This document shows, piece by piece, positions 4,706-39,590 of a stretch of 64,000 nt of DNA (position 1 is its first letter; every line of letters begins with the position of its first letter). The stretch lies in NCBI GenBank assembly GCA_019456195.1, contig VRUK01000007.1:1-64000 (forward strand), in the 5' to 3' direction. The notes beneath the pieces were generated by a model. That model did no database searches and had not been told where the DNA came from. It was given only the letters and a program-made list of their open reading frames with translations. The translations under genes and the position numbers were made by a program. The stretch comes from Planctomycetota bacterium. Lineage in GTDB: Bacteria; Planctomycetota; Phycisphaerae; Sedimentisphaerales; Anaerobacaceae.

Positions 4706-4751
4706 CACACTGCAAGCTGTACGAAAAATCTCTGTGTTCTCTGTGCCCCGG

Positions 4752-4823
4752 AGTTTACCCTCGATGTTAGCTTACTTGCTCCTCTATCGGGGGCCTATAA
4801 ATCGACAGCCTAAAGGTAGCATT
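4752..4823 (+). repeat. Two dispersed repeats in tandem
   Basis: 4752-4793 is a near copy of the block at 2359-2400, and 4802-4823 copies the CGACAGCCTAAAGGTAGCATT block at 3363. Here the two units adjoin, suggesting they are parts of one larger decayed repeat. Confidence 0.6.
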
Positions 4824-5952: not shown

Positions 5953-6121
5953 GTTTTCGGTCAAAAATGCTCACTGTTAAAAACAAAAATGAAATATTTC
6001 AAAAATTTTTATCTCCTTTCCTCATAAACACTTAAGCTGATTTACTCATCATAAAACCACAATTTTTCGGCTCAAAACTGCACACTCGTCTAATTATAGA
6101 GGGCTGCTTTATTTTAGCAGA

Positions 6122-6147
6122 GCCTGCCCTGAGCGTAGTCGAATGGG
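6122..6147 (+). repeat. REP-like repeat inside element copy A
   Basis: CCTGCCCTGAGCGTAGTCGA core directly after the element's hairpin, followed by a T-run. Copies B and C lack it at this place, so it appears inserted into, or exchanged within, copy A. Confidence 0.5.
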
Positions 6148-6162
6148 TTTTTTTACTCCCTT

Positions 6163-6206
6163 AGTTTACCCTCGATTGCTGCTCACTTGCTTCTCTGTCG
6201 GGGGCC
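6163..6206 (+). repeat. Dispersed repeat, GTTTACCCTCGAT type (third copy)
   Basis: AGTTTACCCTCGATTGCTGC..CACTTGCT...CGGGGG, related to 2359-2400 and 4752-4793, here embedded within element copy A. Confidence 0.55.
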
Positions 6207-6516
6207 CTCAGTTAAGGAGTTTTGAATATGAAACACCAAACTTTAGCTCACTTTAGGCATTTTAGCTCACTTTTCACTCATTTTCGCTCTACAACTGTAG
6301 AGAACTCTCTACAAATCAACCCTTTTTATGCAAAACAAACCCAATTTCAGAAATGACAAAATGAATATAACCTTAGACATTGCAAGCATTTACAAGATTT
6401 TGCACCGCTCACCGGAGCCAAAAAACAAAGCCAATTCAAACCCAATAAAGCCAAAAACAAACCCAATTCAAACCCAATCAAAGCCAAAACAAACCCAATT
6501 CAAACCCAATTCAAAA

Positions 6517-6543
6517 CCTGTCCTGAGCGGAGTCGAATGGGCC
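6517..6543 (+). repeat. REP-like repeat at the end of element copy A
   Basis: CCTGTCCTGAGCGGAGTCGA core immediately after the CAAACCCAATT tail. In copy B a related motif (39518-39552) also interrupts the same tail, so the tail seems to be a preferred location for this repeat. Confidence 0.5.
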
Positions 6544-11207: not shown

Positions 11208-12188
11208 TTACTTCTTTTCTTTTTTGAAGTTTATATCGAACCATGAATCGTCGGAAAGCTCGCCGTTGTCCAGTCCATAGATTGCAACTTTAATGGTGTT
11301 ATCGTCAACCTTTGAATAAGCGATTCCTACATCCGTTGCCTCTCCATACTCATTAGTCATTTTGGTCTTTGAAATCGCCTCATCATCCTGGGCTTCCCAT
11401 GTGGCCTTAGTTACCTGACCCCGGCTGTCCACGCTGATTTGTTTGCCTTGCTGCTCATCAAAGTCAAGGTAAATCAGGCCAAGTGTTGACCTTTCACCCA
11501 TCTTGAAACTGCTGATCATTGCATGCCCCTTGACCGCCCATCGATAGGTTAGCAACATCTCCGTTCCATCATCCATGGTGGCTTTCCATCTACCTATCAT
11601 CCAGGCAATCCCCTGCTGCTCAACAATATCCTTGAGACTATCCTGGCTGGTTGACGCGATGGCCTTTGGACGCAAGGGCTCCATCTTCTTTTGTTTTTTG
11701 AAGTCTATATCGAACGATGAACTGCCGGAAAGCTCGCCGTTTTCCAATCCATAGACTGCAACATTCATAGTGGTAGCGTCGATCCTTGAATAAGCGAATC
11801 CTACATCCGTTGCCTGCCCATACTCATCAGTCATTTTAGTTTTGTGAATCACCTTTCCGTCCTGTACTTCCCAGGTGGCCGCAACCGCTTGTCCCCGGCT
11901 GTCCACAGTCAACTGTCTGACCTGCTGCTCATCAGCAACAAAATAAATGATGCCTTGTGACGAATTGTCACCCATTTTAAAATTGCTGACAATTGCATAT
12001 CCCTTGACTGCCCATCGATAGGTCAGCAATATCTCCTGCCCATCGTCCATGGTGGCTTTCCACTGCCCCACAATCCATGCAAGCTCTTCCTGCTCAACAA
12101 TATCCTTGAGACTCTCCTGACCAATTGCCATACTCCCTATAGCAACCAACAAGGTCATTACTACCAAACTCTTTGTTACCTTATTCAT
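11208..12188 (-). CDS. Secreted protein of two tandem 145-residue repeats (lipocalin/DUF1579-like)
   Basis: A 326-residue exported protein: signal peptide MNKVTKSLVVMTLLVAIGSMAIG, then two homologous copies (about 25-168 and 183-326). Both copies share SLKDIVEQ, the W-x-x-G-x-WKATMDDG motif, LLTYRWAVKG, FKMG, DSRGQ, ATWE, KTKMT-x-EYG-x-ATDVG, AYS and YGL-x-NGELS. The duplication is also clear in the DNA. The pattern W-x-x-G-x-W followed by long strands suggests a calycin-like beta barrel of the DUF1579 type, which is tentative. AAGGAG precedes the ATG. It lies between sugar oxidoreductase and ceramidase-like genes on the same strand, with gaps of 159-198 bases, so it may have its own promoter. 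Function unknown. Confidence 0.75.
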   Translation of the reverse strand: MNKVTKSLVVMTLLVAIGSMAIGQESLKDIVEQEELAWIVGQWKATMDDGQEILLTYRWAVKGYAIVSNFKMGDNSSQGIIYFVADEQQVRQLTVDSRGQAVAATWEVQDGKVIHKTKMTDEYGQATDVGFAYSRIDATTMNVAVYGLENGELSGSSSFDIDFKKQKKMEPLRPKAIASTSQDSLKDIVEQQGIAWMIGRWKATMDDGTEMLLTYRWAVKGHAMISSFKMGERSTLGLIYLDFDEQQGKQISVDSRGQVTKATWEAQDDEAISKTKMTNEYGEATDVGIAYSKVDDNTIKVAIYGLDNGELSDDSWFDINFKKEKK

Positions 12189-23248: not shown

Positions 23249-24049
23249 ATGAGGAGACGAAGAGGGTTTACCCTGATAGAACTTTTAGTGGTTATCGCTA
23301 TTATCGCACTTTTGATGGCGATATTGATGCCCGCACTGGCCAGGGTCAAGAAACAGGCACAGTCGGTTACCTGTCAGGCAAAACTGAAACAATGGGGCCT
23401 TATATTCAAGCTATATACGGATGACCATGACGGCTATTTCAATGAAGGTTGGGGAGTGGGTGAGCCTACGCTGTTCCCGAACGCACTGCGCTCGTATTAC
23501 AAAAACGACGATAGCATGCTCCTGTGCCCGACGGCAACCAGAGAAATGTTAAGTGATGCCGACTGGGGCACATTTAAAGCGGCTGTCCGTACTATGTCAA
23601 CACCAGAAGGTGGTTCTCGCCGTTACGTCTTCAGCTATTGCATAAATTCATGGACCAATTATATGCACGCCGACCGCGGAAGCCGCCTGGAAGAATGGTT
23701 CTGGAAAAGTGTCAACAATGCCAAAAATATGAGTCAAATTCCAGTCCTCGGTGATGGCACATGGCATGACGCCTGGCCTCGCGATACCGATACGCCGGCG
23801 CCGACTATGGATGCTTTTGGCATAGGCAATCAGGGCACTTCGGGCGAAATGGACCATTTTTGCATCGACCGGCATAACGGATTCATGAACATGCTCTATA
23901 TGGACTGGTCTATCAGAAATACCGGGCTTAAAGAGTTATGGACCATAAAGTGGCATCGTGACTTTAACACAATGGGCCCGTGGACAAGAGCCGGCGGCGT
24001 AATGCCCAGCGACTGGCCGCGATGGCTGCAGCGATATAAAGATTACTAA
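23249..24049 (+). CDS. Prepilin-like (type II pseudopilin) protein
   Basis: A 266-residue protein with a prepilin peptidase site: [20 protein letters not shown], with cleavage expected after the Gly and Glu at mature position 5. One long hydrophobic helix follows, then the region ARVKKQAQSVTCQAKLKQWG. The C-terminal globular part carries H-N-G-F-x-N-x-L-Y-M-D-W, a variant of the H-X9-DG motif of planctomycete pseudopilin-like proteins in which W replaces G. ATG 23249 has GGAG 7 bases upstream and gives the short leader expected; an upstream ATG at 23177 would add 24 residues before the leader. A paralogue lies immediately downstream with its own terminator. Probably secretion-apparatus or surface fibre related; exact role unknown. 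Confidence 0.85.
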   Translation: MRRRRGFTLIELLVVIAIIALLMAILMPALARVKKQAQSVTCQAKLKQWGLIFKLYTDDHDGYFNEGWGVGEPTLFPNALRSYYKNDDSMLLCPTATREMLSDADWGTFKAAVRTMSTPEGGSRRYVFSYCINSWTNYMHADRGSRLEEWFWKSVNNAKNMSQIPVLGDGTWHDAWPRDTDTPAPTMDAFGIGNQGTSGEMDHFCIDRHNGFMNMLYMDWSIRNTGLKELWTIKWHRDFNTMGPWTRAGGVMPSDWPRWLQRYKDY

Positions 24050-24068
24050 AATTATCTGCCAAATACAA

Positions 24069-24099
24069 AAAGGCCGGCCTATCGGGGCTGGCCTTTCTT
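24069..24099 (+). terminator. Intrinsic terminator between the two prepilin-like genes
   Basis: AAGGCCGGCC and GGCTGGCCTT pair around a short loop (TATCGG) and are followed by TTCTTA, shortly after the first prepilin-like stop codon. This separates the two paralogues into independent transcripts. Confidence 0.75.
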
Positions 24100-24154
24100 A
24101 TGGACTGATATTATTTGAAAAGAAATCTGAACGGACAGAATGGAGTTGTTTCTT

Positions 24155-24904
24155 ATGCGAAAAAAACAAGGATTCACCTTAATCGAACTTTTAGTCGTCA
24201 TAGCTATTATCGCTCTGTTGATGGCAATCCTGATGCCCGCACTCCAGCGGGTAAGAAAACAGGCAAAAGTGGTTCTCTGCCGCACCAATCTCAAGGAATG
24301 GGGTCTCGTCTGGGCAATGTACACAGACGAAAACAATAGCAAATTCCCCGACTATATGGGAGGCGACTGGATGCAGAATCTGATAGATTACTACTCTAAC
24401 AGCGAAAAACTCCTTTACTGCCCGATGACCACCAAAACCATGGAAGAGGGCGCTCCAGTCCGCTATTCAATTCTCCCTACCGGAGGAAGCTATTCACTGA
24501 ATGAGTGGATTTATGACAGCGACGATACCGGTGGCGGCCGCAGGCTCGAGGAGTACTGGAGAAGCACAAATCATAAAGGTTTGAATAACGTCCCTGTTAT
24601 GGCAGATGGCGCCTGGCGTGCTGACGGCCAGCCCTACGAAACCGATGCACCTCCCTCATACGATGGAGAGCCGCGCTCTGGAGTAGGTACGACAGGAAAT
24701 GAAATGCGCATCTTCTCCATCAACCGTCACGATGGATTTGTAAACGTCCTCTTTATGGACTGGACCACCAGGAAAATAGGAATCAAAGAGTTATGGACTT
24801 TGAAATGGAATACCGACTATAACATTGCCGGCGCATGGACTACGGCCGGCCTCGCACAACCGGGCGACTGGCCGCAATGGATGAGGCATTTCAAAGACTA
24901 TTAA
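24155..24904 (+). CDS. Prepilin-like (type II pseudopilin) protein, paralogue
   Basis: A 249-residue protein opening [20 protein letters not shown], the prepilin peptidase site and hydrophobic helix, then [16 protein letters not shown]. It shares the whole layout of the preceding gene, including YTDENN near residue 60, RRLEEYWRS, and the C-terminal [14 protein letters not shown] followed by [15 protein letters not shown]9-D-W replaces the usual H-X9-DG. ATG 24155 gives a six-residue leader with GGAG 9 bases upstream; ATG 24140 overlaps that GGAG and is less likely. The two arose by duplication and have diverged in the middle. Different promoters and terminators suggest separate regulation. 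Confidence 0.85.
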
Positions 24905-24925
24905 AAAATGACCGTTGAACAAAAC

Positions 24926-24953
24926 AAGCCGGCTTAATATACCGGCTTTTTTA
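24926..24953 (+). terminator. Intrinsic terminator after second prepilin-like gene
   Basis: AAGCCGG (24927-24933) pairs with CCGGCTT (24942-24948) around CTTAATATA and is followed by TTTTTATT. It is well placed 25 bases after the stop codon at 24904. Confidence 0.85.
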
Positions 24954-25070
24954 TTGGCTCTGTCTCGCGACTAAACCGGCCACCTGCCTGATAAGTTCAA
25001 ACTCAGAATTGTTTTTCCAAATGCAGTAATTATGTTTGCCCGCCGAAGAGATTCTCACGGGCGCGCGGAA

Positions 25071-25649
25071 CTAATAAATAATCGCAGTGGCTTCTTCAAT
25101 CCTCCTGATGACCTCTTTGGCATCGGAGGAGTAAGGTACGTAACCATCGAAGCCCTTCTGCAACAGGGCCTCGGACTCAGATTCACCTAAATTGTTCACG
25201 AGTGCTATAATCTTAATAGTCCTCAAATCCTCATTCGTATGAATACATTCGCAAATGCTCATCGCATTTATGTCCTCAGACAAAAGGCTTACAAGCAAAA
25301 CATGAGGGGCAAATTTATGAACTATCGCACCGGTACCAAAATTGCTCCGGACGGTCTTGACTTCGTAGTCTGCTTCGCTTCGCAAAACATCCGCCAAAGC
25401 CGATGCAGTCTTATCGTTACTGTCTGCTACAAGTACCCGGATTTTGCCCACCGGAAGTGCCGATGTAGGCATATTATGCATCTTCATAAACCGAATCAGC
25501 TCGCCGACAGGTATTCGCCTGTCCTTGCTGCCTGGTATGCGATAGCCTTTGAGTTGGCCGTTATCAAACCACTTCGAAACCGTTCGGGGAGCAACGTGAC
25601 AAATCTTGGCTACGTCGCCCGTCGTTAGTACGTCTTTGCCTTTTGCCAT
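25071..25649 (-). CDS. Excisionase-type HTH regulator with degenerate receiver domain
   Basis: A 192-residue regulator. Residues 8-55 form a MerR/excisionase-like winged HTH: LTTGDVAKICHVAPRTVSKW, then FDNGQLKGYRIPGSKDRRIP. Residues 68-190 resemble a CheY-like receiver (IRVLVADSNDKTASALADVL opening, FAPHVLLVSLLSEDI third strand). The acidic pair (D,N-D) is kept, but the phospho-acceptor aspartate expected after VLLV is a serine and the conserved lysine region reads ALVNNLG, so it is probably a pseudo-receiver that is not phosphorylated. ATG 25649 is used, with AGGA about 10 bases upstream. An in-frame GTG at 25667 is possible. Monocistronic, divergent from the DegT aminotransferase gene; target unknown. 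Confidence 0.8.
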   Translation of the reverse strand: MAKGKDVLTTGDVAKICHVAPRTVSKWFDNGQLKGYRIPGSKDRRIPVGELIRFMKMHNMPTSALPVGKIRVLVADSNDKTASALADVLRSEADYEVKTVRSNFGTGAIVHKFAPHVLLVSLLSEDINAMSICECIHTNEDLRTIKIIALVNNLGESESEALLQKGFDGYVPYSSDAKEVIRRIEEATAIIY

Positions 25650-38990: not shown

Positions 38991-39590
38991 TTTTCGGTCA
39001 AAAACGCTCACTGTTAAAAACAAAAATAAAATATTTCAAAAATTTTTATCTCTCTTTTATATAACGAGTTACAAACAATAAGCCAAGAAAAAAAGCCAAA
39101 TTTTCGGTTCAAACGTGCACACTCGTCTAATTATAGAGGCGCAGTTTTTCTGCCCTCACTGAATAGTCAATATTGTAGCGAAACGGAAAATCCTTAGCCG
39201 AATTACCAGTCATGAGCATCAAGAATACAACTTTAGCTCACTTTAGGCACTTTATCCGCCGCGGCGGATTTAGCTCACTTTTCACTCATTTTCCCTCTAC
39301 AATTGTAGAGAAAGCTCTACAAATCAGACCTTTTTATGCAAAACAAAGCCAAAGTCAAGTACGCCCAAATGAACCTAAGCTCTTATATGACAAGGAAATA
39401 CGAAAGAATGGACAATTGGTTATTCAGACAAAACAAAGCCAATTCAAAGCCAATAAAGCCAAAAACAAACCCAATTCAAACCCAATTTAACCCAAAACAA
39501 AGCCAATTCAAAGCCAATTGGAGCGAAGCGCAAATCCTGAGCCTGTCGAAGGAACAAACCCAATTCAAAGCCAATCTGAATTCTTGCCGA
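38991..39590 (+). repeat. Dispersed element copy B
   Basis: Best-preserved copy. The A/T block TTTTCGGTCAAAAACGCTCA to AAAAATTTTTATCTC spans 38991-39051. CACACTCGTCTAATTATAGA (about 39118-39137) leads to the hairpin GCAG-TTTTT-CTGC (39141-39153). A reading frame starts at ATG 39212. A perfect 16-bp palindrome ATCCGCCGCGGCGGAT is inserted at 39254-39269 without breaking the frame, followed by the palindrome CTCTACAATTGTAGAG (39295-39310). A tail of CAAAGCCAATT/CAAACCCAATT units (39428-39575) is interrupted by a REP-like repeat. The 92-codon frame would encode an unusual Lys/Gln/Asn/Pro-rich peptide (NKAKNKPNSNP). The rest of the 38608-39651 gap has no gene. Confidence 0.78.
39518..39552 (+). 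repeat. REP-like repeat within element copy B tail
   Basis: GGAGCGAAGCGCAAATCCTG followed by AGCCTGTCGAAGGA, splitting the CAAAGCCAATT tail into two parts. Confidence 0.5.

Follow-up and report, generated by a model that had tools for sequence, protein, structure and literature searches.

The 5′ half of a dispersed planctomycete repeat is a module that also precedes phage-derived operons and HNH-AP2 genes

The repeat that a first-pass annotation had noticed in the window (the whole 64,000-nt stretch of planctomycete DNA analysed here) is real, dispersed and more extensive than first noted, and its 5′ half turned out to be something that the earlier reading had missed: a module, termed A below, that is common to phage-derived operons and to HNH-AP2 genes across the order to which the source genome belongs. 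We give about an even chance to the view that module A is an activator-dependent promoter serving the order-wide regulon of a domesticated phage that resembles a gene transfer agent (GTA), and that the dispersed element is this module fused to a non-coding tail, module B; the promoter activity of A is putative and judged from the features of its sequence and from the genes that it precedes.

Reading, alignment and searching confirmed the three copies in the window, with the block order and orientation originally described for them (Table 1). The element is laid out as module A (~149 nt), a variable middle that often contains a hairpin and further palindromic repeats, and module B, which consists of a ATGCAAAACAAA[C/G]CCAA head and a CAAACCCAATT tail. 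The distance from the core of A to B differs among copies (~140–350 nt), and the conserved blocks are ~70–93% identical among those in the window. The core itself, CGTCTAATTATAGAGG, has three exact occurrences there, with 0.48 matches expected by chance, and the sole further window match at ≤3 mismatches has the full three.

Table 1. Copies of the element in the window and the parts recognized in them (positions are those of the window).
Feature	Coordinates	Strand	Evidence or remark
Copy 1, module A	5954–6102	+	Alignment and search of window copies
Copy 1, module B	6320–6510	+	B head/tail match
Copy 2, module A (control-type region): distal box, A/T-rich block, proximal box, core	38991–39139	+	Profile R1, E 1.3e-27
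Copy 2, distal box TTTTCGGTCAAAAACGCTCACT	38991–39012	+	Recurs imperfectly, in direct orientation, as the proximal box ~108 bp further on
Copy 2, proximal box and 22-nt core CACACTCGTCTAATTATAGAGG (−10-like)	39101–39139	+	Core exact in 52/68 genomic copies
Copy 2, variable middle with hairpin GAGGCGCAGTTTTTCTGCCCTC and inserted palindromes	39140–39327	+	
Copy 2, module B: CCTTTTTATGCAAAACAAAGCCAA head, mid segment, CAAACCCAATT tail	39328–39576	+	Interrupted by a palindromic repeat
Copy 3, module A	61130–60982	−	Profile R1, E 1.1e-28
Copy 3, module B	60819–60668	−	B head/tail match

The element lies outside genes, as had been claimed, and B is found downstream of A on the same strand in all of the 64 pairs from three distant genera. 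The short reading frame formerly assigned to the element is not coding: variability in B at the three codon positions is 0.28, 0.25 and 0.29 in the source genome, B frames contain stops and B lengths do not come in multiples of three. On these three grounds we rejected a small protein-coding family and take B to be conserved DNA or RNA. The CTCTACA palindrome that had been placed in the same frame does exist, but in part of the copies only.

Other repeats were also seen in and around the copies. A separate 49-bp repeat (TTTACCCTCGATGTTAGCTTACTTGCTT..GGGGGCC) lies at 2354–2402, 4747–4795 and 6158–6206 and is inserted mid-element in many A-B units as well, and short palindromes of the CCTGAGCCTGTCGAAGG or CCTGTCCTGAGCGGAGTCGAATGGG kind lie in or beside the element at 6123–6147, 6517–6541 and 39536–39552. 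Copy 2 contains, between two TTTAGCTCACTTT repeats, an inserted perfect palindrome, ATCCGCCGCGGCGGAT (39254–39269), that is missing from the other two window copies. Elsewhere in the window, direct 300-nt copies that are 77% alike (11211–11510 and 11685–11984) fall within one ORF on the minus strand (11208–12188).

A search of the source genome (5.82 Mb in 217 contigs) for the 22-nt core gave 68 matches at ≤3 mismatches, 52 of them exact, and none for a reversed control. Sixty-one of these copies are not cut by contig ends, and 59 of the 61 keep A, B and the tail in order; further copies are present, and the blocks behave as a unit rather than occurring independently. The two exceptions have an HNH-AP2 gene (L100) or a GNAT-ParB operon (L102) after A. 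The same genome has 108 B heads, so for some copies of B no A is detectable. Within the family, a sequence profile of module A (R1) had matches in 70 of the 89 genomes, representing 40 of 45 genera; elsewhere in the order they become sparser. Of 248 genomes sampled evenly from the class, 32 matched, every one of them in the order of the source genome, and none of the sampled genomes of other orders did. A collection of viral contigs yielded no match to a strict exact pattern of proximal box plus core, which diverged forms would escape. The element had been called undescribed, and this still applies, with no Rfam match at the gathering threshold and no description in the open-access papers searched, whose coverage is incomplete.

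In the family alignment, module A starts with a distal box (TTTCnnTCAAAnnYGC) and proceeds through an A/T-rich block (ACAAAAATnAAA..TTTTTT) and a TAAnnACTTA-like box to a proximal box, which repeats the distal box ~108 bp downstream and leads into TCTAATTATAGAGG. The earlier suggestion of a structured RNA gene family did not survive closer analysis: the consensus fold of A amounts to four weak pairs (−0.58 kcal/mol) and covariation in the core palindrome is weak. With almost no consensus fold in A and a negative Rfam search, we rejected that reading.

A phage portal gene of the SPP1 type is present in 60 of the 89 family genomes (35 of 45 genera), nearly always in single copy and mostly 66–94% identical to the portal of the source genome, the few extra matches being fragments. 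Of 30 portal loci (L260–L289), 28 have module A 41–194 nt ahead of the ATG, 27 of them at E ≤ 2.6e-11 and one as a weak match. In genome G104 (contig C110; L258:4407–14365) the portal is followed by a scaffold, an SU10-type capsid and a run of uncharacterised genes, and visual inspection of the 40 kb examined turned up no integrase. On contig C204 of the source genome, one A lies before the portal (23858–25402) and another before the genes for GNAT, ParB and the small and large terminase subunits, which form a separate operon on this contig (L256:9832–17415, L257). As in a shared promoter of the GTA type, the same A is thus upstream of structural, packaging and accessory phage operons, and, as in GTAs, the structural locus is single-copy and widely conserved in the lineage. 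The single-copy locus with portal, scaffold and SU10-type capsid is a candidate GTA of Planctomycetota; the open-access papers searched, again with incomplete coverage, contained no report of a planctomycete GTA.

Module A likewise precedes genes for HNH-AP2 nucleases (Pfam HNH_3 and AP2): of 30 loci, drawn from the genus of the source genome and three further genera, 20 have it upstream, and several of the remaining ten are cut by contig ends. No B tail was found directly downstream of these HNH copies. We had considered HNH-AP2 as the sole autonomous partner of the element, a reading that lost weight with the finding of A before portal, ParB and other genes and with the lack of B in the HNH copies. 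In three other genera (L218, L240, L249), A is followed by an ORF of ~190 aa (ANRRNAQKSTGP..NAVKHGL) and then by B; the one such ORF scanned had no match in Pfam or PHROG. In most remaining cases, B alone comes after A.

Since module A precedes portal, ParB-terminase and HNH-AP2 genes and shows no RNA structure, and since B has no coding signal, we read A as a control region. As a promoter, it would bind an activator at the distal box, ~110–120 bp upstream, the A/T-rich block would bend, and the conserved TCTAATTATAGAGG would provide the −10 region (the −35 and −10 elements being assigned by eye). Once the programme is on, all copies would fire and B would be transcribed, and in roughly three of every four cases transcription would run on towards the host gene that follows. 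The units may have spread by copying through the genome in the past and would now be kept or homogenised in place, with turnover of the DNA on their A side. The two direct-repeat boxes of A would also fit a packaging (pac/cos) or recombination site, likewise upstream of phage genes, and promoter function leaves both the accessory DNA on the A side and the retention of B unexplained.

The copies mark a border: conserved genes lie close behind B, and on the A side lies DNA that is missing from four congeners. The nearest gene lies a median of 58 nt from the B end and 324 nt from the A end (p 4e-9), and in 43 of 57 cases the gene behind B runs in the direction of the element; single gene distances are approximate, because start codons were taken from a simple ORF rule. 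When loci of a congener were compared with those of the source genome with no side preselected, all 13 of the flank-match pairs read were on the B side. In seven pairs with long context, B-side synteny was kept throughout the compared stretch and held for 3–7 kb, and on the A side there was none in six and weak similarity in one (L194). Flank probes matched in four congeners in 14 of 14 cases for the B side and in 1 of 14 for the A side (Fisher p 7e-7), a difference that may in part reflect non-coding sequence, since the A-side probes were taken farther out from the element (740–900 nt, vs 300–480 nt on the B side). Proteins encoded on the A side include an IS1595 transposase, a PemK-like toxin, an IscB-like fragment, ankyrin proteins and defence-like AAA proteins, and those on the B side include folD, a YjeF-type enzyme, and ACT-domain and other metabolic enzymes, joined by further neighbours that we read from unscanned translations as dnaK, polA and ribosomal protein L20. 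Element pairs with their B ends inward were also observed to bound blocks of ~3–5 kb (L190:294–3892, L194:973–5453, and contigs C51, C101 and C152 of the source genome).

As to the proposal of a non-autonomous mobile element, congeneric species do differ in its presence or absence at the same core gene, but neither a clean empty site nor a target duplication could be read. In every presence/absence pair of congeners whose flanks were compared, the left flank was unshared, and because of this no clean empty site, 5′ boundary or target duplication is readable; the search for empty sites of eight G000 copies in genomes lacking the element gave none that was readable, the left flanks again being unrelated. 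In agreement with the earlier remark on terminal repeats, the 5′ end (TTTTCRGTC) and the 3′ end (CAAAGCCAATT) of the three aligned window copies are not mutual inverted repeats. Copies of A at orthologous positions are 0.69–0.87 identical, no closer than paralogues (mean 0.83), the lowest values being unsafe in that some pairings took another copy on the same locus; this pattern is consistent with homogenisation, replacement or fast drift. We weighed a MITE-like transposon, moved in trans by an unseen enzyme, bounded by the 5′ end of A and the end of the B tail, and descended from the A-ORF-B units of other genera. Its high copy number, the retention of both ends by those units in three genera and the variable presence at the same core gene among congeners are all in its favour, but there is no transposase or terminal inverted repeat, no target duplication could be read, the unrelated left flanks leave the 5′ boundary of the unit not demonstrable, A without B appears to control single-copy operons, and several copies in G005 and G001 adjoin the same core gene as in G000. 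Such a transposon is, in our judgement, unlikely.

The border position could also arise if foreign DNA entered on the A side, through site-specific integration or at breaks made in A (for example by HNH-AP2 nucleases), the copies being attachment-like sites or recombination hot spots that anchor islands as tRNA genes do. The flank probes, the synteny confined to the B side for 3–7 kb when neither side was preselected, and the transposase, toxin, IscB-like fragment and AAA proteins resembling defence systems on the A side are all as this would predict; however, A has no recombinase linked to it, the far ends of islands showed no direct repeat, an exact junction is conserved nowhere, and selection alone could yield the asymmetry if insertions survived only at a distance from the promoter of the following gene. 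We regard this explanation as improbable. More improbable still is that A is the pac/cos-like packaging start of GTA-like particles, with TerS or an HNH protein binding the two boxes and the copies seeding packaging of the chromosome rightwards. A does adjoin terminase, portal and HNH genes, and the conserved blocks start at A and run rightwards, but the A-side neighbours are missing from congeners rather than swapped among copies, and A lies before several separate operons at distances like those of 5′-UTRs, which suits a promoter better than a packaging signal. A family of small non-coding RNA genes, with A as promoter and B as product, would agree with the invariable A-to-B order and with a B that is conserved yet non-coding; the lack of an Rfam match and the insertions between A and B in many copies speak against it, and we consider it very improbable indeed.

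Returning to module A as a promoter of a GTA-like regulon, the scattered copies might even be working parts of that system, either as programmed sites of entry through which foreign DNA is directed to one flank of core genes or as starts for rightward packaging into phage-like particles, an extension to which we attach little probability. If it were true, a domesticated phage would have organised where the genomes of this order gain and exchange genes. The data point to a candidate GTA-like locus conserved across a whole planctomycete family, with a sequence signature for its regulon, and each genome has tens of amplified copies of this signature where core and acquired DNA meet. Two questions thereby become testable, namely whether GTAs are made by planctomycetes and what determines the sites at which their genomes take up foreign genes.

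Among known repeats, the element is like REP/BIME, ERIC and Correia-type sequences and MITEs in being short, non-coding, high-copy, intergenic and mosaic with other repeats. It is unlike them in that it is not a simple palindrome, has no terminal inverted repeats, is strongly oriented to core genes and has a module that is conserved upstream of single-copy phage operons order-wide. Stand-alone homing-type endonucleases of the HNH-AP2 family are connected to it through the A that their genes carry upstream, but the dispersed copies have no nuclease gene and the HNH copies no B tail. The candidate locus resembles RcGTA and CcGTA in having a single-copy, apparently vertically kept portal/capsid operon apart from the terminase operon, with a shared control module, and differs from them in phage type, with an SPP1-like portal and an SU10-like capsid. 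In the Caulobacter GTA promoter, GafY binds near −120, with an IHF site between and a degenerate −35, and GafZ also regulates; this control region serves the GTA cluster and about 18 other promoters or sites (PMC11150451). Module A is similarly common to a phage-derived cluster and other loci, with a distal box ~110–120 bp from the core and an A/T-rich block between, a likeness of layout only, with no sequence relation seen by eye. Unlike the Caulobacter GTA promoter, module A exists in tens of amplified copies per genome, in fusion with tail B.
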